Assembly (NCBI GenBank): GCA_903926465.1
Contig: CAIYJE010000065.1
Location: 1 to 41,233 of the forward strand
Source: an uncultured Planctomycetales bacterium
Lineage (GTDB): Bacteria; Planctomycetota; Planctomycetia; Isosphaerales; Isosphaeraceae
DNA length: 41,233 nucleotides
Reading direction: 5' to 3'
The position numbers and the translations under genes were made by a program. Below, piece by piece: positions 3,382 through 41,233 of this stretch; position 1 is the first letter of the stretch, and each line of letters begins with the position of its first letter. The notes under the pieces were generated by a model. That model was not told the origin of the DNA. It saw only the letters and a program-made list of their open reading frames with translations, and searched no databases.

Positions 3382-4374
3382 TCATTCTTTGTCGGGATCG
3401 CCTCCCTGAACGAACCCATAACCGAACCGCCCTTTGATGCACAGGTTTCCGTGGGTAACCTCAACGTCCAGGGGAGAGGTTACCTTCACAATCTGGTTAT
3501 CTTGAACGTGCAGAGAGAGGGTGCATCCCACGCCGCAGTACGGGCAGATGGTATCGGTTTTGGTCTGGCGGGCTTCATCCCACTCACCACGTTGGCGCAA
3601 ATCGTATTCGCTTTTGAACATCAATGCGCCGGTAGGGCACACGCCAATGCAGTTGCCGCAGTAAACGCAGGCGGAATCTGGGAGCGGGATGTTGTCCTCG
3701 GTTGAGATTCGAGCATCGAACCCGCGCCCAGCCACGGCAATGGCGAACGTGTTTTGGGCATCAGTTCCGCACGCTTCCACGCATTTGTAACACAGAATGC
3801 ATTTGCTGTAGTCACGCACGTAGAGGTTATTGTCAATCTTGACCGGCTGGGCCACGGTCTCGGCATGCAGGCTGCCAGGTGGGTGGTGGTGGCCTGGTTC
3901 GCGGGCGTCTCGCTCTCCAGCAAGGGCGGCTTCTTTTGCCGGTCCGTAGCGACCGGCGTTAGCGCCATAGCGGCTGGAGTACTCCAGGGCGGTGGGGGCG
4001 GTGGAGAGATCGACCGACGACCCCAGGAATTCCAGGACCATCTTGCGTGAGAGTTGAACACGCGGTGAGTTGGTCTGAATCTCCATTCCGGGCTCAACCC
4101 GTCGAGAGCAGGCAGGGACCAGGGTGCGAGACCCTTTGACCTCAACCACGCAAACCCGGCAAACGTTCACGGGGGTGAGCGTTTCCAGGTAACAGAGGGT
4201 GGGGGTATCAATCCCGATCGACCGGCAAGCATCAAGGATGGTCGCCGTGTCGGGCACGGCCACCGCCTGTCCATCAATCGAGATCTCAACGCGGGGCGTC
4301 TCAACGGGGGTTGGAGCGATGGGTGGATGACTGGGGCGTGGAGGCGGGCGGAACCAGAGAGAATCGTCGCTCAT
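3382..4374 (-). CDS. Formate dehydrogenase iron-sulfur subunit carrying the detached Fe4S4 domain of the large subunit
   Basis: This 330-residue protein is an electron-transfer module. Residues about 28-110 form a [2Fe-2S] ferredoxin-like domain (C61, C72, C75, C89). Residues 185-255 hold two 4Fe-4S motifs (C192/195/198/202 and C236/239/242/246). Residues 273-320 are the molybdopterin-oxidoreductase Fe4S4 domain (ICPYCGVGC, C277/280/284, and C312 in GNLCIKGRFG). In FdsA-type enzymes this whole module is the N-terminus of the catalytic subunit. Here it ends at GFVQGGDPDKE and is a separate gene, third in the operon. The His-Cys3 cluster normally found after the 2Fe-2S domain (NuoG/FdsA) is absent around residues 115-170. 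The start at 4374 overlaps the stop of the preceding gene (ATGA), which implies translational coupling. Confidence 0.88.
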   Translation of the reverse strand: MSDDSLWFRPPPRPSHPPIAPTPVETPRVEISIDGQAVAVPDTATILDACRSIGIDTPTLCYLETLTPVNVCRVCVVEVKGSRTLVPACSRRVEPGMEIQTNSPRVQLSRKMVLEFLGSSVDLSTAPTALEYSSRYGANAGRYGPAKEAALAGERDAREPGHHHPPGSLHAETVAQPVKIDNNLYVRDYSKCILCYKCVEACGTDAQNTFAIAVAGRGFDARISTEDNIPLPDSACVYCGNCIGVCPTGALMFKSEYDLRQRGEWDEARQTKTDTICPYCGVGCTLSLHVQDNQIVKVTSPLDVEVTHGNLCIKGRFGYGFVQGGDPDKE

Positions 4375-6206
4375 CGAATCTGTGCTACCTTTGGCATTGG
4401 GTTCAACGTGGCAAAGGCAGATTCCACTGCATTTGAGGCGGCTTGCCCCAGGCCACAAATTGAAGCATCTCGCATCACTTGCCCAATTTCCTTGAGCAAT
4501 TCCAGTTCGTCGGCGTAACTACGCATTGGCTTGCCCGATCGCAGTCGGTGCAGCAACTCTTCCTGCCGCACGGTCCCAACCCGGCAAGGAACACACTGGC
4601 CACACGACTCATCGCGGAAGAAGGCGGCGATGCGGAGCAAGATATCCGCAAGATCGACCGACTCGTCAAACACTAGCACAACGCCTGAACCCAGAGACGC
4701 GCCGGCCGCCCGGGTTCCCTCGAAACTCAGAGGGATATTCAGCTGATCGGGGCCGACGAACGAGCCAGCGGCTCCGCCAAGCAGTACCGCACGAATCGCT
4801 TTGCCACCCGCCACGCCGCCCGCTTGCTGAATTAACTGACCCAGGGTGATCCCAAAATCAACCTCATACACCCCCGGCCGAGTGACATGGCCAGACACGC
4901 AGAACAGCTTGGGGCCGGCCGATCCGGCCGTTCCAATCCGCGAATATGCCTCGCCACCGAGCGCAAGAATTTGCGGGATATTGACCAGCGTTTCCACGTT
5001 GTTGATCACGGTTGGCTTGCCAAACAGCCCGACATGCACAGGGAATGGTGGCTTGTTTCTGGGCTCACCACGCTTCCCCTCAATGGAGTTGAAAAGGGCG
5101 GTTTCCTCACCGCAAATATACGCCCCGGCCCCGCTGCGAAGTTCGATGTCAAAGCTGAAACTTGAGCCCAAGATCTTGGGGCCTAGCAGATGTGCGGCCC
5201 TGGCGGCTTCCAGGGCGTGCTTCAAGCGTTCGGTGGCCTGCGGATACTCACCACGAATATAGAGATACCCCTGCTCGCTGCCCGTGGCCAGGCCGGCGAT
5301 GGTCATCCCCTCGATCACGGCAAACGGATCTCCCTCCATGAGCACACGATCTTTGAAGGTACCGGGTTCCGATTCATCGGCGTTGCAAACCACATAGTGG
5401 GGTCGGGCAGGGGCCTTGGCCACCGCCTCCCACTTCCGCCCGGTCGGGAACGCTGCGCCACCGCGACCCATCAGTTTGGAAGCCATGACCTCGGCAATGA
5501 CAGCCTCTGGGCCCTGGAGAATCCCCTTGGTGAGCGCCGAATAACCGCCTGAGGCCTGATAAGCCTCCAGGCTGCAAGGATTAACCCTGCCCACCCGGCT
5601 CAGGAGTCGCAAGTTATCAGAGCCAAACTGAGGGACCGACGCACGGATGGATTCTCGCGTATCAGCCGAAGCGGGAAGGTCTGCGGCACGAGCCGCCAGC
5701 AAAGACTGGGAATTTGCCGGGGCCACGGAAGTTGCCGAAGGGGTCTCTCCAGCCCTGACCACAAGCGCGGCGGGGGCCCGTTCGCACTGGCCCAGGCACG
5801 GACTCCGTTTCCAGCCCTCGGCACCGAGGGCGTGCTGGAGTTCCGTACATAACCCTTCAGACCCCTTGATCCGACAGGCCACGTCATCACACACGTGAAC
5901 CACGGTTGGCGGCGTGGATTTGAGCGTGAACATGTGGTAGAAGCTAGCCACGCCGTGGGCCTCGGCCGGCGGAACCGAGAGCCGCCTGCAGATATAGTCC
6001 ATCGCGCCTGGCGGAATCCAGCCGAAGCGATTCTGAACCGCATGGAATGCCGGCAGCAGTTTGCTCCGCTGCACCAGTGAGTGGTGGCCCTCATCCCTTG
6101 TGATCCTCAGTCCGCCAGGCCCTTCCGAAGGGGGCAAACCCAGAACCGAATCCACAACAGATCGTTCGGTCAGCGTTGCATCTGGGCCGTGGAAGTGAAG
6201 GTCCAT
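4371..6206 (-). CDS. NuoE-NuoF fusion, NAD/FMN-binding diaphorase subunit of formate dehydrogenase
   Basis: The roughly 610-residue protein joins a thioredoxin-like [2Fe-2S] domain (NuoE/FdsG type) to a NuoF/FdsB flavoprotein. The NuoE part has VCDDVACRIKG and SPCLGQCERAP, the four cluster cysteines. The NuoF part has the NAD/FMN loops GRGGAAFPTGRKWEAV and GAGAYICGEETALFNSIEG, and the 4Fe-4S motif ESCGQCVPCRVGT with a later SICGLGQ. It takes electrons from the Fe-S subunit and reduces NAD(P)+ in the cytoplasm. The ATG at 6206 lies five bases after the catalytic-subunit stop and has GGAG upstream. A GTG at 6236 would give a longer, overlapping product. The acidic and Pro-rich linker near residues 170-200 joins the two halves. 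Confidence 0.9.
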   Translation of the reverse strand: MDLHFHGPDATLTERSVVDSVLGLPPSEGPGGLRITRDEGHHSLVQRSKLLPAFHAVQNRFGWIPPGAMDYICRRLSVPPAEAHGVASFYHMFTLKSTPPTVVHVCDDVACRIKGSEGLCTELQHALGAEGWKRSPCLGQCERAPAALVVRAGETPSATSVAPANSQSLLAARAADLPASADTRESIRASVPQFGSDNLRLLSRVGRVNPCSLEAYQASGGYSALTKGILQGPEAVIAEVMASKLMGRGGAAFPTGRKWEAVAKAPARPHYVVCNADESEPGTFKDRVLMEGDPFAVIEGMTIAGLATGSEQGYLYIRGEYPQATERLKHALEAARAAHLLGPKILGSSFSFDIELRSGAGAYICGEETALFNSIEGKRGEPRNKPPFPVHVGLFGKPTVINNVETLVNIPQILALGGEAYSRIGTAGSAGPKLFCVSGHVTRPGVYEVDFGITLGQLIQQAGGVAGGKAIRAVLLGGAAGSFVGPDQLNIPLSFEGTRAAGASLGSGVVLVFDESVDLADILLRIAAFFRDESCGQCVPCRVGTVRQEELLHRLRSGKPMRSYADELELLKEIGQVMRDASICGLGQAASNAVESAFATLNPMPKVAQIR

Positions 6207-6210
6207 GGAA

Positions 6211-8124
6211 TCAATTCGCTCCAATGCGGTCAACACGAATGGCGGCCGCTTTGAATTCGGCAGTGCCCGCCTTGGGGTCGGTAGCGTCTATGGTCAGGAT
6301 ATTGGTCGCGACCTCATCCTGGAAGTGGGGTGTCATGAACGCTAGGCCAGGTCGAAGCCTCTCGTCGATCCACACTGGCACCTCAACATGCCCCCGACGT
6401 GAGGAAACTCGAACCATCTCTCCACTGCAAACTCCGAGCCGAGTGGCATCATCTGGAGAAATATCGATCGTTTCACCTCGCCTCAGCGGTGACGAGAAGC
6501 CCGAGGTCTGAACGCCTGTATTATAGTCGTCTAGCCGGCGGCCGGTGGTTAGCCGGAGCGGAAATTCCGGGGTCAACCGTTCCACGGGCGGGTCGTCTTG
6601 CACCGGCTGAAATGCAACCTGGGGTCCGTTCAGCGGTTGTTCCCAGAGCCGGCTGTGCAGGAATAATTCGCCGGGGTCATTTTCGTCATAGCAGGGCCAC
6701 TGAAGGCCGTGCGAGGCTTCCAGGCGGGCGTAGCTCATGCCGGTGTGGGGCGGGCTGAGTGCTCTCAGTTCGTCCCAGATCTGTTCGGAATTGGGTTGGC
6801 CCCAATCGTGGCCCAGCCGCTTGGCCAGGTCGAACAGAATTGCCACGTCATCACGGGCGCCTGGCGGTGGATTCACGGCCTTACGAACGCGCTGAACCCG
6901 CCGTTCGCTGTTGGTCACGGTTCCGTCAGACTCACACCAGCCGGCTCCAGCCGGCAAGACCACGTTGGCCATCTGGCCCGTGGCGGTCAGGAACATGTCT
7001 TGAACAATCATGAAATCCAGGTTTTCCAGGCGGCGGCGTGCCAGAGCCTGATCGGCTTCAGACTGGAGCGGGTTCTCACCCAGCACATACAGGGCTTTGA
7101 GTTCGCCATGCTCCATGGCCTCAAACATCTGGGTCAGGTTCCAGCCCCGTTTCGGCGGAACTTTCACGCCCCAGCGTTGGTCGAATTTGGCGCGAAATTC
7201 CTCGACCTCCACGTGCTGGAAGCCCGGGAGCCGGTCTGGCAAGGCGCCCATGTCTCCGCCCCCCTGCACATTGTTTTGACCCCGCAATGGATTCAGGCCG
7301 GAGCCGTAGCGTCCAACATGGCCGGTGAGCAAGGCCAGGTTGATCAGGGCGAGCACGTTATCCACGCCGTTGTGATGCTCGGTAATTCCCAGGGTCCAGC
7401 AAATCATGGCCCGTTCCGCTTGGGCGTAGGCGTGCGCCATCTCGCGGATCGCCTGGCGGGGAACACCGGTCACCTGTTCGGCACGCTCAAGCGTGTACGG
7501 CTCGACGGCCGCCTTGTAGGCCTCAATTCCGGTTGTGGCGTGGCCAATGAATTCGCGATTTTCCAGACCGGCGGCAAGGATCTCTCGCCCCACCGCGTTG
7601 GCCAGCATGATGTCGGTACCCACGTCCAGGCTCAGCCAGACGTCCGCCCAGCGCGCGGAGCTGGTCTGGCGGGGGTCCACCGTGAACAGGCGGGCGCCGT
7701 GATTGATTCCTCGCAGCAGGTGGTGGAAGAAAATGGGATGGGTTTCGCGCGCGTTGGATCCCCACAGCAGGATGACGTTCGTTTCTTCAACTTCGCGGTA
7801 GGAGTTTGTTCCCCCACCAGCTCCGAACACGGTCGCCAGACCGGCGACACTCGGAGCGTGTCAGGTTCTATTACAGCTATCGATGTTGTTACTGCCGATC
7901 ACGGCGCGAGCAAACTTTTGCGCGGTGAAATTCAACTCGTTGGTGGTCTTGGAACAACTGAACAGACCGAACCCGGTGGGCCCGTACTGAGCCTTGGTGG
8001 CAAGCAGCCCGGCTGCCGCGTGATCGAGAGCCTCATCCCAGGAAACCGGTTGCAGTTCGCCATTCTTGCGGACGAGCGGCTCCCGTAGCCGGACGTAGCG
8101 ACCGGATCTGGTCTTGGATCTCAT
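6211..8124 (-). CDS. fdhA: Selenocysteine-containing formate dehydrogenase catalytic subunit
   Basis: Read through the in-frame TGA at 7863-7861, this is a 637-residue molybdopterin formate dehydrogenase. The frame reads NNIDSCNRT-U-HAPSVAGLATVFGAGGG, matching the Sec-His site of E. coli FdhF (U140-H141). Sec is residue 88, and the catalytic Arg of NPLRGQNNVQGGG is residue 281, a spacing of 193. That equals U140 to R333 in FdhF. The downstream portion contains the MGD-binding domains (VILLWGSNARETHP; MGALPDRLPGF) and the C-terminal molydopterin-dinucleotide domain (LRLTTGRRLDDYNTG). It oxidises formate to CO2. The N-terminal Fe4S4 domain is missing: the protein starts at YVRLREPLVRKNGELQPVSWDEAL, and that domain is found in the gene at 3382-4374. 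An in-frame TAA lies just upstream of the ATG at 8124. It is the first gene of the operon. A gene caller would split it at the TGA. Confidence 0.92.
7820..7863 (-). promoter_or_regulatory. Bacterial SECIS hairpin directing Sec insertion at UGA
   Basis: Immediately after TGA (7863-7861) comes CAC, then a hairpin. The lower stem GCTCCGA (7857-7851) pairs perfectly with TCGGAGC (7826-7820). A small internal loop (GT opposite CGTGT) follows. The upper stem GTCGCC (7848-7843) pairs with GGCGAC (7837-7832), closing the five-base loop GGTCT (7842-7838). The loop starts 18 bases after the UGA. E. coli fdhF has a SECIS element with a GGUCU apical loop at comparable distance, the site bound by SelB. 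The stem also encodes the conserved HAPSVAGLATVFGA peptide. Confidence 0.9.
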
Positions 8125-8258
8125 CTGTCGTACCCGTTATGCCGGAGGAAGGAGTTCCGCTAGAATGCGGATAAGCAGTATTGTACGCGAACCGCAACCG
8201 GACTCAAGGTCCGGTCTCGGCCAGCCCGGCCAAACCGGGTCCACACCCCAAAATACCC

Positions 8259-9077
8259 ATGAATTCACCGCAAGATTTAGAAACGGTCTCGTACCCAGTT
8301 GAGTTTTTAGCCGGCAGAGAGGCAGGCCGGAAGCAGGATGATCTTGCCGTGGAGGCCCCCCTGGAGGTCCGGTTCCATGGTCGGCCCATCACCGTACTTA
8401 TGCGCACTCCTGGCCACGATGAAGACCTGATTCGCGGATTTTTGTTCAGCGAAGGGATTATTCGCCAGGCTGAAGAACTCGCGAGCCTGGTCCGACCCGA
8501 AGGGCTGGCGGGCGACGATTTCGGCAACGTGATCGACGTTCATTTTCAGGCGGGACACCGACACCCGGGCCTGGGCCGGTTCTTCTACCGCAGTGCCAGT
8601 TGTGGAGCCTGCGGCAAGAACTCAATTGCTTCCCTTGAGCTGAAAGCCGCCCCCCTGGCTTCCAACCTTGAGGTCCAGAGTGCGGTCCTTGGCAGGTTGC
8701 CAGACCTGCTCAGGTCGGCCCAGCCTACATTTGCGAGGTCAGGCGGCGTGCATGCGTCGGGGCTATTCACGCCAGACGGTCAGCTGGTGGCCGTGCGAGA
8801 AGACGTGGGCCGACATAATGCGCTCGATAAATTGATTGGATGGGCACTGGCCGAAAACCTGGTGCCGCTTCAACAGTACCTGCTGCTGGTCTCCGGGCGC
8901 GTGAGCTATGAGCTGGTTCAAAAAGCCGTGGTTGCGTCCATTCCCATTCTGGCGGCGGTGGGGGCGCCATCCTCCTTGGCGGTTGAGCTGGCAAGCCAGT
9001 TTCAACTCACGCTGGTGGGGTTTCTGCGCCCATCGACCATGAATCTTTATGCTCACTCCTGGCGAGTCCGTGCCTGA
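8259..9077 (+). CDS. fdhD: FdhD, sulfur carrier required for formate dehydrogenase activity
   Basis: A 272-residue FdhD homologue. Known FdhD transfers sulfur from a cysteine desulfurase to the molybdenum cofactor of formate dehydrogenase. The diagnostic motifs are SASCGACGK (the sulfur-carrying Cys pair), GGVHASGLFTPDGQLVAVRE and DVGRHNALDKLIGWAL, followed by LVSGRVSYELVQKA. The ATG at 8259 begins MNSPQDLETV; the longer frame from a TTG at 8181 adds a Pro-rich leader that is probably untranslated. It is divergent from the formate dehydrogenase operon across about 134 bases, so the two may share a control region. This is the expected partner of the Sec enzyme. Confidence 0.93.
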   Translation: MNSPQDLETVSYPVEFLAGREAGRKQDDLAVEAPLEVRFHGRPITVLMRTPGHDEDLIRGFLFSEGIIRQAEELASLVRPEGLAGDDFGNVIDVHFQAGHRHPGLGRFFYRSASCGACGKNSIASLELKAAPLASNLEVQSAVLGRLPDLLRSAQPTFARSGGVHASGLFTPDGQLVAVREDVGRHNALDKLIGWALAENLVPLQQYLLLVSGRVSYELVQKAVVASIPILAAVGAPSSLAVELASQFQLTLVGFLRPSTMNLYAHSWRVRA

Positions 9078-12652: not shown

Positions 12653-14425
<1,773 letters not shown>

Positions 14426-15893: not shown

Positions 15894-17343
15894 TTACACA
15901 CAACCCGTTGCCGGAGTTGCTTTCCCTCTTGGCACGATCCGAGACTGATCCAGTTCAGTAACGAAGTCTTCGACTCCGAACTCTCGAACCGTTCGCTTGT
16001 CCCCTTCAGTCAAGGGTTGCCGGATGGGTATTCCCTGACGGGTGTAGACTTCATCAAGCGAATGGATCTTCCGGCTTCCGCCGGTCTCCAGTTTCGCCTG
16101 GGCCTTGGTCCCCTTGGGAGTCCCTCCCTTACGCTTCTCGCCGGTGGCGCGAACACGCAGTTTCGCCAGCTTGCTCTCCGTTCGCTCCGGCAAGGCGTAG
16201 CGATAAGGTTCCTGGTTCTTGATCATGTACCAGGCAATCGTGACCAGCTTGCGAGCCGTCGCCACCACGGCAACATTGCGATTCCTCTTCTTTTCTAACT
16301 TTCGGAAGAACGCCCCCAGGGGTCCAGGGTTGCGGCCCACGCTCTGCGCTGCCTGGATCAACAGCCAGCGTGTCTGGCTCGATCCAGCCTTGGTGATAGG
16401 GCCGTGGTAACACTTGTCCGCCGATTGCTTGACGCTCGGTACCAACCCCAGGTAGCTCGCAGCCTTGTCTGGATTTGGAAATCGTGAGACGTCCGCAAGA
16501 GTCGCCTTCAGTGCATGTGCCGTGGTGTAATCCAGTCCGGGCAAGGTCATGAGTAAAAGAATAGCAGGATCATCATACGAATCTCTGATAATAAGCGCAT
16601 CAATCACCTCACTTTGTCGGGCGAGCGCCTCTAGTAACATCAGAGCGGCATCGATCAGGCTGCGATCCAGAGGATCAAGCGGCACCTCTCGAACCCAGGC
16701 CAGCCCTGCGTCGGTGAACAATCCGCCTGTGGGGGCGGCAATTATCCGTCGCGTCAGTACGGCATGAATTCGGTTCCGGATGGCGGTCCGCTGACCAACC
16801 AGGGCTGTCCGTCGCGCGGCCAGGGCGTGGCTGTTTTCAATTGACGGCATGGGTGTCCAGACCGATGGTAGGTAATCGCACCGCAAGAGTTGAGCCAGAA
16901 CCTTGGCATCAACCTTGTCGGTCTTGATGCTGGCCTCGGCAATCGCCTTGGTCTTCATCGGATTGGAAACCGTGACCTTGGCCGCGTGGCTTTCGACCAG
17001 TCGAACAAAACCCATGTGTTGCTGGAGACCTCAACCGCCAGTTTGTCGGCGGCTCGAAGTTTTTGGGTAGGGAACCTTTGAATCGCCTCAGGGGTGACAT
17101 CAAAACGGCCCTGTTCGAGACTTTTCCCTTTGGCGTCAACGATGTGGAACGTGGCAATTTGCTTAGAGGCAATTTCAAAACCGGGACAGGCACCTCGCGG
17201 ACTCGGAGCCAGTCCCGGTTTTGAAACGGCTTCTTATGCAAATCGACGCCTACGAATCGAGGCGGGGAAGGCGTGTCGGCCGGTGGGGCCGAGTCAGCCT
17301 GAGAACGGCCGCTATTTTTCCTTCCTGTTTTGACTCTACTCAT
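15894..17343 (-). pseudogene. Decayed IS110-family transposase, three-frame remnant
   Basis: The pieces together make an IS110 DEDD transposase. The N-terminus starts at the ATG at 17343 and reads PPRFVGVDLHKK (first Asp). A second frame continues IASKQIATFHIVDAKGK and AADKLAVEVSSNTWVLFDW. A third frame, open from 17015, gives RLVESHAAKVTVSNP, KTDKVDAKVLAQLL (the Asp pair), LPGLDYTTAHALKATLADVSRF and the C-terminal domain. The first break coincides with a palindrome of 15-bp arms (17173-17226). The second lies at TGGGTTTTGTTC near 17010, where one more T would restore SNTWVFVRLVE. The longest remaining frame (373 residues) lacks the N-terminal catalytic Asp and Glu, so the element should be inactive. 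Confidence 0.85.
17173..17226. repeat. Palindromic element inserted in the transposase
   Basis: TTTCAAAACCGGGAC (17173-17187) and GTCCCGGTTTTGAAA (17212-17226) are perfect 15-bp inverted arms around 24 bases that contain a GGCACCTCG / CGGAGCC near-repeat. It interrupts the conserved DLHKK region of the IS110 transposase and shifts its frame. This is what a small mobile palindromic repeat would do. Confidence 0.75.
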
Positions 17344-24188: not shown

Positions 24189-26186
24189 TTACCGGGAGGG
24201 AATGAAAATATTCCCCTCTAAGCTTTGTTGCCCCTGGCGAACATTCAGCACCCGGCTGGAATGAATGACCTGGGTTGAACCGGCATGTGTCACCACACGC
24301 ACCTGATATCGCCCGGTTCGCAGTCCGTCTTTGACGGCAAAGGCGTACTGCCCGTGGCCGTCTGTCCGTTTGGTTGCCGCCACGGTCTGAGTGGTCAGGT
24401 CAAACAACTGAACTGTTTGATGAGGAACACCAGGACCGCACGTGTCGTTTGATGCTTTGCAGTGAGACAGAGTCCTGACTGTGCCCGAGATGGCGGCCCG
24501 GAAGTAGAACGGGTTGGCCTGCAGGTTTGTAAGATTAGTATCCCTGCGCAGGATGTCGGTGAGGGTGGTGTTCTCGATCTCGCTGAGCATGGAGCCCTTG
24601 AATGCTCGCTGGTACCAGAACCGATCCCCGTCTCGAAGTCTGGTGAACTGGTTGGCGATAATGGCTCGAAAGGTTGGGCCAATACTGGACCCTGGCGCAT
24701 GGGTTTCGGCCAGGCCGGCAACCCAGAGGTCCAGGTTATTCACAGAGCCATACACGTGCTTCAGTCTGGCCTGGAGGCCAGAATCGCTGGTGATCTGCGC
24801 GAACGAGGTTACTCTGGGCAGTCCGTAAGCGTGCCGTACGGTGTTGTAATCGGCCAGGCCGTGGTCTCGGCCGCGCTGGATGTTGAGGCTGACGAGATCG
24901 AGCCCACCTTGACCAGGCATGCCGAACAGCATATTCCGCAGGCTGTCTACCACCTTGGTATCGAGTGAGGACGCCGGATCGGAAGCGAGGTATTTCAGGA
25001 GCGGTTCGATTCCGTTCTGTTCGACGAGGCCTGGGTTGGAGAATGCCTGATTGAGTGACACCGAATCGCGGATGGATAAGCCGTTGTTGTTGAGAAACTC
25101 CACGTCGTTGCCAAGTAGGCTGTGCCCAAACCGGAACGCAGCCGTTGAGAATTCGTTGCTGATGCTCGGGTTCACCTTGGGCTGATACCCAGCGTAAGGG
25201 GCCATTGCGTGCGTGCCCAAAAGGGCAGGGAGCCACTGGTTGTAGGTGATGGATTGGATCTCAGCGATCACGACCGATCGGGCCTGCTGGTAAATCCATT
25301 CGTCACTCATGCCTGGATTCTTGCCGGCAATCTGCTGGGCCCAGAAATTATGCTCACGCAAGAACAGGGTTTGGAGGGCCGTCAGCTCGATATTCTCATT
25401 GGCTCGAACGTCGCCGGCCGCAAAGAGCTCGCTCTCGGGCACGCGCTGAGCGTCATTGGCCATCGAGAGCGTGCCGCCCGGAAAGGTCTGGATGTTATCC
25501 AGTGGCAACAAGTTCCCTGCGCTGGTTTTGAGCATGCCATTCTGAAAGGTCCGGAGCGCATTGGCACGGCCCAGGTCTGATCCGTAGATCATCGACCCAT
25601 CTAGCCATGTGCTGATCGTGTTGACCTGCTCTCGTGGCGTGGTTGCGCCAGAGAGTGGATCGGCAGCCGAGCGATTGAGCGAGATCGTTTGGGTGCCGGT
25701 CCCTTTGGGGTCAAACCAGGGGTCTCCGGTTGGAACCACGATGTTGAATGGCTGGGAAGCGGTTGCGCTGGGGGTCAGGCTCAGGTCGTGGTCAATGAAC
25801 TGGCCCCAGGCATAGAACATGGCGGAAAGGCCCCGGTTGTCTACCGGATAGGTTGTCCCCTGGTCAAAAATGGAATAGCTGATCTGCCTCGCGTTGGGCC
25901 GGCTGGGCCCAGACGGAGTTGAGAGTCCATCGGCATAGGCGGCCGGTGCAATCCTGATCAGATCGGTATTGGCGGCACCCCAGGTCGGGAACGCGAGGTT
26001 GTTATTTGTGCCATCAACGCTGTAGCCAGAGACAAGTGCGGATTGCGTGATGAGCGCAGGAGCCGAGGCAACGGTGAGCAGGCATCTGGATTCAAGTGGA
26101 TTCAGTTCCATTACGACTCGACGACGTCTTTTCAAGATCGAATGTCCAGGTTTGGAAGTGATCAGCGTGTTTTTGATAGTGACCAT
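24189..26186 (-). CDS. Secreted animal-type haem peroxidase with LEPR-XLL-like N-terminus
   Basis: A 665-residue protein of the peroxidase-cyclooxygenase superfamily. The distal His is in WGQFIDHDLSLTP (H133, with flanking Asp residues that bind calcium in relatives). WLDGSMIYGSD, an Arg-containing LREHNFWAQQ and the proximal His in FRFGHSLLG follow, then LNIQRGRDHGL. The N-terminus RRRRVVMELNPLESRCLLT matches the planctomycete LEPR-XLL signal, found on surface or exported proteins. The last 100 residues form a Cna-B/regulatory-like beta domain (GQYAFAVKDGLRTGRYQVRVV). Oxidation of halides or phenols is the family activity; the substrate is unknown. It is convergent with yhhJ and divergent from the DUF1501 gene. 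Confidence 0.88.
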   Translation of the reverse strand: MVTIKNTLITSKPGHSILKRRRRVVMELNPLESRCLLTVASAPALITQSALVSGYSVDGTNNNLAFPTWGAANTDLIRIAPAAYADGLSTPSGPSRPNARQISYSIFDQGTTYPVDNRGLSAMFYAWGQFIDHDLSLTPSATASQPFNIVVPTGDPWFDPKGTGTQTISLNRSAADPLSGATTPREQVNTISTWLDGSMIYGSDLGRANALRTFQNGMLKTSAGNLLPLDNIQTFPGGTLSMANDAQRVPESELFAAGDVRANENIELTALQTLFLREHNFWAQQIAGKNPGMSDEWIYQQARSVVIAEIQSITYNQWLPALLGTHAMAPYAGYQPKVNPSISNEFSTAAFRFGHSLLGNDVEFLNNNGLSIRDSVSLNQAFSNPGLVEQNGIEPLLKYLASDPASSLDTKVVDSLRNMLFGMPGQGGLDLVSLNIQRGRDHGLADYNTVRHAYGLPRVTSFAQITSDSGLQARLKHVYGSVNNLDLWVAGLAETHAPGSSIGPTFRAIIANQFTRLRDGDRFWYQRAFKGSMLSEIENTTLTDILRRDTNLTNLQANPFYFRAAISGTVRTLSHCKASNDTCGPGVPHQTVQLFDLTTQTVAATKRTDGHGQYAFAVKDGLRTGRYQVRVVTHAGSTQVIHSSRVLNVRQGQQSLEGNIFIPSR

Positions 26187-39562: not shown

Positions 39563-40837
39563 TCACGGCAACAGATCGACGGGGCTAATGCAACGGAACC
39601 CTAAGCAGCGACCACGGGCATCCGGAACTCGTCCACGTCGGTACGTGGTGCGACACAACTCGATTGGCCCGACCCAACTGCCACCACGTTCGCTACGGAC
39701 GCCCGTTTCAACGGTGTTCACGGGATTGGGCGCTCGTGATTCAGGACGTTGATAGAAGTCTTCAGCAAACCAGTCTTGGCACCATTGCCAGACGTTTCCT
39801 GCCATGTGATGCAAGCCGAACGATGATAGCCCGATTGGATGGTGAACGGGTGCCATCTGCATCGTGCTGGCCCCGTAAAGGGTGCCTCGCTCATGCTGGC
39901 CGAATACGAGTGTTGGATCGTCTGAGTCGAATGAAGCTGGTTCGCGGTTTGCCCCCTGAGCGGCATACTCATATTGAGCCTCCGAGGGAAGAAACCCAGC
40001 TTGAGTTTGATACTGCTTCCATTCTGATCCGTTGGCCCAAAGCGAATACGCATTGGCTCCGAACCAAGAAACCAACACCATCGGTAAGGTTTCGGCCCCA
40101 ACGACCGGGCGCCATCCATTGTCTGACAAAACCACAGGCATCTGAGCAATTCGGTCGTCGGCTGGATTGAGTTGGAACCAATCGAGCAGTACTGATTCTG
40201 TTGCCTGAACCGAATTCAGGAACCGGCAATAGGCCGTGGTTGATACCGGCTCGGCATCAACCAAGAATGAATCGAGGTGAATCATGTGGACGGGTTGTTC
40301 ATCCGGCTGAGCATCGGAACGATCGCTCCCAATTCGGGTCTCAGCGGCAGGAAGTTGCAAACAACGCATTCCGTCTGAGCGTCTGCGAAACTGGCGAATG
40401 CCGATTTCTGATCCCAGTGGCTCAAACAATGAATATGTTAGATGGGAGGAATCCATTTGCCAATAACCGCCGAGTTGACTGAATGGTATTGTTGCGTAAT
40501 CAAAATCCGGCAGCTTCGTCTGTCGCCCACTTGTGCGTTCCGGCTTACCGCTCCCTTGCTGTAAATATACGATCTCTGCAAGGTCACCGAGGCGAAATGG
40601 CTGTCGGGTAAAGACAGACTTTCCCACCGGATTGTTGGGTTCGTTTGGAATCGTTACGAGGAACTCATCCTCCAATTCCATGAGAAGTTCCACCAGGTCA
40701 AGGCTGTCACATCGGAGGTCTTCGATCAACCGACTTGATGGCAAAACCTTATCGCGTGGAATACCGAGTTGCGCGGAGACAACATTGCAGACACGCTGCT
40801 CAATAACGCTTAATTCCAGTCGAGTATCGTTTGCCAT
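39563..40837 (-). CDS. Acyl-carrier domain fused to an FGE-sulfatase-like domain
   Basis: A 424-residue fusion. Residues about 8-95 are an acyl carrier protein domain with RLIEDLRCDSLDLVELLMELEDEF, the Ser of DSL being the phosphopantetheine site. The C-terminal roughly 240 residues are an FGE-sulfatase/SUMF1 domain: HMIHLDSFLVDAEPVSTTAYCRFLN, GFLPSEAQYEYAAQGA, HHMAGNVWQWCQDWF, RSERGGSWVGPIELCRTTYRRGRV and GFRCIS. In true formylglycine-generating enzymes two Cys flank a five-residue span in the SWxxx site. Here the first is Gly (SWVG) and only the second Cys remains, so sulfatase activation is doubtful. The start at 40837 is an ATG. No signal peptide is present. Confidence 0.8.
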   Translation of the reverse strand: MANDTRLELSVIEQRVCNVVSAQLGIPRDKVLPSSRLIEDLRCDSLDLVELLMELEDEFLVTIPNEPNNPVGKSVFTRQPFRLGDLAEIVYLQQGSGKPERTSGRQTKLPDFDYATIPFSQLGGYWQMDSSHLTYSLFEPLGSEIGIRQFRRRSDGMRCLQLPAAETRIGSDRSDAQPDEQPVHMIHLDSFLVDAEPVSTTAYCRFLNSVQATESVLLDWFQLNPADDRIAQMPVVLSDNGWRPVVGAETLPMVLVSWFGANAYSLWANGSEWKQYQTQAGFLPSEAQYEYAAQGANREPASFDSDDPTLVFGQHERGTLYGASTMQMAPVHHPIGLSSFGLHHMAGNVWQWCQDWFAEDFYQRPESRAPNPVNTVETGVRSERGGSWVGPIELCRTTYRRGRVPDARGRCLGFRCISPVDLLP

Positions 40838-41168
40838 GGCTGATATTCTTACTCGTAAGAAGTCACCCTGTCAAAGAGACGATTTGCCCACTCGTACCAA
40901 GGACTGTGGCGATCAACGGTGTTATCAGTCCCTGCTCACGAAGTTCGATTGGCCTATGGCGTTTCTGCTTCGTTGAATCGGGAAATCCCTCATTTTTCCG
41001 TAAGCTAGGAGTTTTGGACGATTCACCTCTCACTCAATTGTAGATTAACCATGAACAGATCCAACAAAAAAAGGGTTCATCCGGCTAAAGCTCGCGCCGG
41101 TTTGCAAGTAGTGGACATGCGGATTCTAATTGGAGTTGCAAAAAGAGGCTCCAGGTTAGGAGGTCCGC
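40838..41168. other. Intergenic stretch before the ISL3-like element
   Basis: No gene is seen here. The end of the insertion sequence is probably near GGGTTCATCCGG at about 41074, which follows an A-rich run (CAACAAAAAAA), as expected for ISL3-family targets. Confidence 0.4.
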
Positions 41169-41176
41169 ATGTCCAC
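41111..41176 (+). promoter_or_regulatory. Hairpin masking the transposase start codon
   Basis: GTGGACATGCGGA (41111-41123) is the exact reverse complement of TCCGCATGTCCAC (41164-41176), which contains the ATG at 41169. The ribosome binding site AGGAGG (41158-41163) directly abuts the stem. A transcript entering from upstream would fold and hide the start. Confidence 0.7.
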
Positions 41177-41233
41177 CAGTTTGTTGTATCACGCTTTCGG
41201 CATTCGCGGCTATCAGTACGTCAAAACAGATTA
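41169..41233 (+). CDS. Start of an ISL3-family-like transposase, cut by the window end
   Basis: The frame begins MSTSLLYHAFGIRGYQYVKTD and continues past the window edge. MSTSLLYHAFG-RGY is the usual N-terminus of ISL3-family transposases in planctomycetes, as I recall it; a search would confirm. AGGAGG at 41158-41163 precedes the ATG by five bases. Confidence 0.6.
   Translation, partial: MSTSLLYHAFGIRGYQYVKTD

Follow-up and report, generated by a model that had tools for sequence, protein, structure and literature searches.

What does a bacterial protein do that joins an acyl carrier domain to a domain of the FGE-sulfatase family? The question is raised by a gene, here called ACPFGE, at one end of a 41,233-nucleotide stretch of DNA from an uncultured Planctomycetales bacterium (the window). 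The window is a complete contig (C65) of a genome of 6.9 Mb in 207 contigs (G000, the own genome in the following), so the start of ACPFGE lies 396 bp from the contig end. The original prediction, made from the letters of the window, described an acyl carrier protein (ACP) domain fused to an FGE-like domain in which one active-site cysteine is lost, and doubted a role in sulfatase activation. We judge it fairly probable that ACPFGE is an accessory part of RNA repair in bacteria of the class Planctomycetia. The basis of this reading is the architecture of the gene, its conservation and its repeated placement among RNA-repair genes.

The fused gene and its distribution

The predicted fusion is borne out: ACPFGE is one open frame in which Pfam recognizes both a PP-binding domain (E 1.9e-6) and an FGE-sulfatase domain (PF03781, E 5.2e-34), each above its gathering cut-off. 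The coordinates of the gene and its features are collected in Table 1. NCBIfam models of ACPs match the N-terminus and models of EgtB, GldK, PvdO and SenA match the C-terminus, all under their cut-offs. The protein is probably cytosolic.

Table 1. Features of ACPFGE in the window
Feature	Position	Strand	Basis or conservation
ACP-FGE fusion gene (ACPFGE), 424 aa, ATG start	39563..40837	-	single ORF; Pfam; orthologues
Possible sigma-70-type promoter directly upstream of the start codon; weak	40845..40874	-	3 such sites in scanned stretch vs 1.4 expected in shuffles
ACP-like region, ~aa 9-95 (Pfam PP-binding aa 14-64; conserved run to ~aa 95)	40553..40813	-	profile matches, conservation
Ser45 of DSL motif, expected 4'-phosphopantetheine site	40703..40705	-	Ser in 30/30 orthologue rows
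FGE-sulfatase domain, ~aa 150-417 (Pfam aa 160-417)	39587..40390	-	Pfam; HMM alignment to human FGE
Cys204, near-specific to the ACPFGE family (Cys in 1/23 other domains aligned there)	40226..40228	-	30/30 orthologues
Cys353 in GNVWQWC motif, common in the superfamily (44/47 domains, query and duplicates included)	39779..39781	-	30/30 orthologues
Gly390, place of the first catalytic Cys of FGE	39668..39670	-	alignment; Gly in 30/30 orthologue rows
Cys395, place of the second catalytic Cys of FGE	39653..39655	-	alignment; Cys in 30/30 orthologue rows
Cys411, near-specific to the ACPFGE family (Cys in 3/43 other FGE-family domains)	39605..39607	-	30/30 orthologues
Cys416 in GFRC motif, common in the superfamily (26/47 domains, query and duplicates included)	39590..39592	-	30/30 orthologues

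A gene-calling error joining two genes had been named as a possible objection. It is ruled out because the fusion is conserved: 30 of the 397 genomes of the class (own included) have a match at E ≤ 1e-60, and 29 of these matches are full length. The candidate of two joined genes was rejected on the same ground. The exception, G689, is a piece of 136 residues at a contig end. The full-length orthologues are 49-66% identical to the window protein (own genome apart), and a further one is found in Candidatus Laterigemmans baculatus (L038). Within the family, full-length matches occur in 5 of 45 genomes, own included. Among 392 sampled members of the phylum, all 10 full-length matches (own included) belong to the same class, and the remaining matches (E ≤ 1e-18) are confined to the FGE part. 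A scan of genome contigs, which detects close relatives only, returned one full-length relative and eight ACP-only matches. In viral contigs, none of 14 pattern matches was confirmed, and plasmids gave no match at E ≤ 1e-20.

Conservation was assessed in an alignment and tree of 30 rows, made of 29 class genomes and Laterigemmans, with the partial G689 left out. The alignment contains 80 invariant positions. Most of them (69) fall in the FGE part, which spans ~275 positions; the ACP part, up to aa 95, has 8 and the linker 3. Ser45, Cys204, Cys353, Gly390, Cys395, Cys411 and Cys416 are among them. In seven close pairs, dN/dS ranges from 0.16 to 0.21 for the gene as a whole, from 0.08 to 0.39 in the ACP part and from 0.12 to 0.19 in the FGE part. 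Both domains are kept by selection, since each has invariant positions and a dN/dS below 0.4. In the gene tree, the own-genome row, of family f1, clusters with two rows of family f3, G383 and G452 (support 95/88), apart from the other f1 rows. This conflict with the genome families, together with the patchy distribution, suggests horizontal transfer.

The cysteine positions of the FGE-like domain

An HMM alignment to wild-type human FGE (1y1e) places Gly390 on the first cysteine of GGSYMCHRSYC and Cys395 on the second. These human residues are the catalytic cysteines, usually numbered 336 and 341. An alignment of this site across homologues, which had been proposed as a check, gives the same picture, with Gly390 and Cys395 each in 30/30 rows. 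The Cu(I)-binding pair of catalytic cysteines known from FGE is therefore not present at its canonical place in ACPFGE.

In order to place this state within the superfamily, 56 loci of other FGE-family matches were read in six frames and 68 domains were aligned. A C-terminal motif filter was passed by 47 of them, which leaves 43 other non-identical domains after removal of the query and three duplicate readings. Both cysteines are present in 12 of the 43, the second only in 11, neither in 20 and the first only in 0. The claim of one lost active-site cysteine thus stands in so far as the first position is invariably glycine; the word 'lost' is overstated, since a lone second cysteine, found in 11 of 43 other domains, is an ordinary state among FGE-like proteins. 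Nor is the missing cysteine a peculiarity of the window gene, as all 30 orthologues share it with these 11 domains. A recent loss was also considered and rejected, because glycine is found in 30/30 rows and the state is common in the superfamily. Elsewhere in the own genome, three tandem FGE-family genes (G000:C170 13146-16076; L113-L115) include two alignable ones, both of which keep the second cysteine only.

Compared with formylglycine-generating enzyme (SUMF1; human 1y1e, T. curvata 5nxl/6s07, S. coelicolor 2q17), ACPFGE has the FGE-sulfatase domain in full length, the GGS and GFRC motifs and the second cysteine. Unlike them, it has glycine for the first catalytic cysteine, the family-specific Cys204 and Cys411, and an N-terminal ACP; its neighbours in the linked genomes described below are RNA-repair genes, not sulfatases. 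The superfamily also includes members that do not act on sulfatases. PvdO, EgtB, SenA and GldK have the same domain and give the best NCBIfam matches of the FGE part, but ACPFGE stays far under the equivalog cut-offs of these models (62 vs 360, 62 vs 350, 51 vs 500 and 50 vs 420 bits), and the models, as matched here, include no ACP domain. An AlphaFold2 model computed on a two-row alignment (window protein and the Laterigemmans orthologue) has a mean pLDDT of 31.4 and a pTM of 0.24.

Could a one-cysteine FGE nevertheless activate sulfatases? The PF03781 domain itself points this way. The two sulfatases that had been noted in the window are real (119-808 on the reverse strand, with 174 of 301 profile positions matched, and 12653-14425 on the forward strand), and in G377 a sulfatase starts 277 bp from ACPFGE. 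Across all loci, however, a homologous sulfatase-type gene (by clustering) lies within 10 kb in only 4 of 31, Pfam-confirmed only in G377, and sulfatases are abundant in these bacteria anyway. In addition, a canonical two-cysteine FGE is encoded elsewhere in the own genome (G000:C35, L112). This separate enzyme and the constant glycine at the first position make sulfatase activation by ACPFGE extremely unlikely, and the earlier argument against it, drawn from the absent first cysteine, is upheld.

A second alternative gives up catalysis altogether. The FGE-like domain would then be a non-enzymatic ligand binder of the C-type-lectin fold, for instance a sensor or a binder of toxins or damaged factors, and the ACP arm would couple it to lipid or acyl-carrier metabolism or dock partners; a role in RNA repair or conflict would be kept. 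The absence of the canonical cysteine pair is in line with this idea, and the covered part of PMC7159879 describes FGE-type domains as binders in diversity-generating and conflict systems. Against it, the domain is strongly conserved rather than diversified, as its invariant positions and low dN/dS indicate, and this includes the FGE active-site loop. The hypervariable C-terminal region of DGR/FGS variable binders has no counterpart here: the C-terminal loop of ACPFGE is near-invariant in the 30 rows. We regard a pure binder as possible but somewhat unlikely.

RNA-repair genes around ACPFGE

Bacterial RNA-repair operons combine ligases, kinases/phosphatases, methylases and nucleotidyltransferases. 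Systems of Pnkp, Hen1 and RNA ligase, and those of RlaP, repair RNAs cleaved by ribotoxins. The original prediction had suggested a look at the neighbouring genes in other genomes. There, RNA-repair genes recur beside ACPFGE, an association which is not visible in the window.

In four of the 30 genomes ACPFGE sits inside same-strand runs of RNA-repair genes. The order is Hen1-HEAT-ACPFGE-Rnl-HD/kinase (HD/AAA_33)-(small ORF)-Pnkp in G001 and Hen1-HEAT-ACPFGE-unknown gene-Pnkp in G030. In G643, which belongs to another family, one strand carries Rnl-HD/kinase-Hen1-RlaP-R2K ATP-grasp-RlaP-ACPFGE-Pnkp. The packing is tight here: 23 bp separate the end of RlaP from the ACPFGE frame, and Pnkp starts within ~13 bp of the ACPFGE stop, so that neither gap exceeds ~25 bp. 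The fourth run, RlaP-RlaP-EF-Tu paralogue-R2K ATP-grasp-Macro-ACPFGE, is found in G646, a genome with no Pnkp-ligase match. In terms of known systems, ACPFGE thus lies within runs of the Pnkp-Hen1 or Pnkp1-Rnl-Hen1 type with RlaP and R2K accessories in G001, G030 and G643; the G646 run has RlaP and R2K only. As a separate observation, the latter run (L165 2530-10780) has a divergent microbial PARG gene as its neighbour, and its second RlaP is interrupted by a transposase-like ORF.

Looser linkage is seen in further genomes. G452, a genome with no Pnkp match, has two RlaP genes 1.4 kb downstream of ACPFGE, beyond an opposed ORF. In seven genomes of genus g23, which form one clade on the tree, Rnl-HD/kinase-Hen1-Pnkp follows on the same strand, starting 2.3-6.4 kb downstream of ACPFGE. 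Within the same genus, the RNA ligase of G092 is 16.6 kb away, G113 has ACPFGE and no Pnkp match, and G225 keeps the repair cluster without ACPFGE. In G022, RlaP is ~13 kb from ACPFGE on the same contig. Altogether, an RNA-repair gene lies within 10 kb in 12 of the 30 tree rows. The other 18, the window and Laterigemmans among them, have none of the tested RNA-repair genes within this distance. In the own genome, Hen1-Pnkp is located on contig C91, and the sole RlaP match, with a TAG inside, on C145.

The comparison with other genes of the same family was made in 20 of the 30 genomes, which were hand-picked and include all 12 linked ones. The control genes come from 150 of 201 FGE-family matches listed, 11 of which are ACPFGE and 139 others. 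For ACPFGE, a distance of at most 15 kb to Pnkp or RlaP is found in 12 of the same 20 genomes; among the matches listed, 0 of the 139 other genes come as close as this, and 2 of 139 come within 50 kb. If shared ancestry is ignored, 12/30 rows against 0/139 among the matches listed corresponds to a Fisher p of ~1e-10. Well-supported branches of the tree force at least five changes of linkage (gains or losses). The chance of five independent placements near repair genes is roughly 1e-6 to 4e-5 under assumed locus numbers and genome size.

Co-occurrence across genomes points in the same direction. A Pnkp ligase (E ≤ 0.001, partial matches included) is found in 20 of 30 ACPFGE genomes vs 93 of 367 others (p 7e-6, ancestry ignored); counted by genus, the association is weak (10/17 vs 53/168, p 0.03, ancestry likewise ignored). 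RlaP (E ≤ 1e-15) occurs in 24 of 30 ACPFGE genomes vs 32 of 80 ACPFGE-negative ones (p 2e-4, ancestry ignored), the 80 being picked by handle number from the 367. At these thresholds, 10 of the 30 ACPFGE genomes have no Pnkp-ligase match and 6 have no RlaP match. The association is not obligatory, because four ACPFGE genomes (G113, G383, G666, G706) have neither.

These data also bear on the possibility that ACPFGE tailors a metabolite bound to an ACP and is functionally unconnected with RNA repair; the neighbourhoods would then result from shared variable regions and horizontal transfer. The patchy distribution (30/397) and the tree conflict of the own-genome row would fit, as would the varying neighbours of unlinked loci. 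Furthermore, the slot between Hen1 and Pnkp accepts other, differing genes as well (the 305-aa unknown of the own genome, HEAT proteins and others) and may therefore be a site which gathers passengers. Shared variable regions do not easily account for the count of zero among the other FGE-family matches listed within 15 kb of Pnkp or RlaP, for linkage in several separate lineages or for the position of ACPFGE inside tight gene runs in G643 and G646; moreover, the scanned neighbourhoods showed no biosynthetic gene cluster. A tailoring enzyme of this kind is, in our estimate, unlikely.

Two genes of these neighbourhoods deserve mention in their own right. The 305-aa gene between Hen1 and Pnkp in the own genome (C91, L103 5463-6380) has no Pfam match, and relatives occupy the same slot in G092, G225 and G576. 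Pfam likewise has no match for a 241-aa gene of G030 (L079 7596-8321), whose relatives lie next to RNA-repair genes in G000, G181, G282 and G343.

A different association was noticed post hoc. In three loci, all unlinked to RNA repair, Mch or FhcB-like C1 genes are found near ACPFGE: Mch (PF02289) precedes it by 33 bp on the same strand in G644 (L163 4977-5936), and genes that we take to be FhcB-like, with a weak Pfam match, are ~2 kb away in G466 (L153 12350-13642) and G498 (L159 12679-14055). They would suggest a part in tetrahydromethanopterin-linked C1 metabolism. However, these are few of 31 loci and come with no control, and C1-pathway genes are several and scattered in these genomes, so we consider such a part very unlikely.

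The carrier arm and the remainder of the window

If the preferred role in RNA repair is correct, what would the carrier domain contribute? Like the type II fatty-acid acyl carrier protein (AcpP), ACPFGE has the DSL serine and the helix after it. Unlike AcpP, its carrier part is fused and contains a conserved FTRQPFR insert ahead of the last helix, and its score falls short of the cut-offs of the NCBIfam ACP models (61 vs 71 bits). Ser45 is followed by leucine in 30/30 rows and preceded by aspartate in 29 and glutamate in 1. An ACP-like ORF of the own genome (C168) is 47% identical to ACPFGE over aa 12-69, and the genome has two matches to phosphopantetheinyl transferases (ACPS, PF01648). This ORF, the two transferase matches and the conserved DSL serine make the loading of Ser45 plausible at the level of sequence. 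The invariant Ser45 also accords with the original suggestion that the FGE domain may act on a carrier-bound substrate.

In the mechanism that we propose, a cellular phosphopantetheinyl transferase would load Ser45, and the ACP arm would hold a group, or dock partner proteins, next to the FGE-like domain. The carried group might be acyl or aminoacyl and destined for RNA or a translation factor; alternatively, the arm would be a docking or sensing device. The FGE-like domain, presumably incapable of the canonical two-cysteine Cu(I) chemistry, retains the invariant C-terminal loop ERGGSWxGPxxLC...RRGR...GRCLGFRC and may modify or bind a substrate during the repair of damaged RNA or translation factors. 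The most specific version is a carrier-dependent chemical step, in which a group on the ACP arm is processed by, or handed through, the one-cysteine FGE-like enzyme to damaged RNA or a translation factor. RlaP and the R2K ATP-grasp ligase would work alongside, joined in G646 by the EF-Tu paralogue and the Macro domain. We put forward this step as a speculation of low probability.

A 2016 review by Burroughs and Aravind is said to be the main one on such RNA-repair operons. In the part of the open-licence PMC literature that was covered, no ACP-FGE fusion and no FGE or ACP part of RNA repair was found; the 2016 review may mention one. The known parts, according to the covered sections of two papers, perform end healing and sealing, lost-nucleotide addition and 2'-O-methylation (PMC4411300; PMC7824862). 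The covered section of a third (PMC4431377) treats R2K ATP-grasp enzymes as predicted peptide ligases; they would act on proteins, among which may be translation factors. Neither an ACP nor an FGE part of known RNA-repair systems appears in these sections of PMC4411300, PMC7824862 and PMC4431377.

A carrier arm fused to an FGE-like domain would suggest a step of repair or signalling beyond what the known parts explain. If true, the carrier-dependent step would bring a new chemistry to RNA repair and add a new function to the FGE superfamily. In addition, the large group of FGE-family proteins with no cysteine pair would gain a concrete, testable pathway. As far as the covered literature goes, new here are a putative, undescribed accessory of RNA-repair systems and an FGE subfamily with its own architecture.

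The remainder of the window contains several features of separate interest. At gathering thresholds, Rfam has no match anywhere in it. Positions 3382-9077 encode a formate-dehydrogenase-type cluster composed of a 2Fe-2S/molybdopterin Fe4S4 protein, a NuoE/F-like protein, a molybdopterin oxidoreductase and FdhD. On the reverse strand, an IS110-type transposase gene is located at 15894-17015. The same strand encodes, at 24189-26186, a haem peroxidase of animal type (PF03098, E 2.6e-162), in which a C-terminal stretch weakly resembles SdrD_B. Lastly, positions 41130-41233, at the contig end, hold the first part of an ORF (MSTSLLYHAFGIRGYQYVKTD), which we take to resemble a planctomycete transposase and which may be the reason for the contig break just upstream of ACPFGE.
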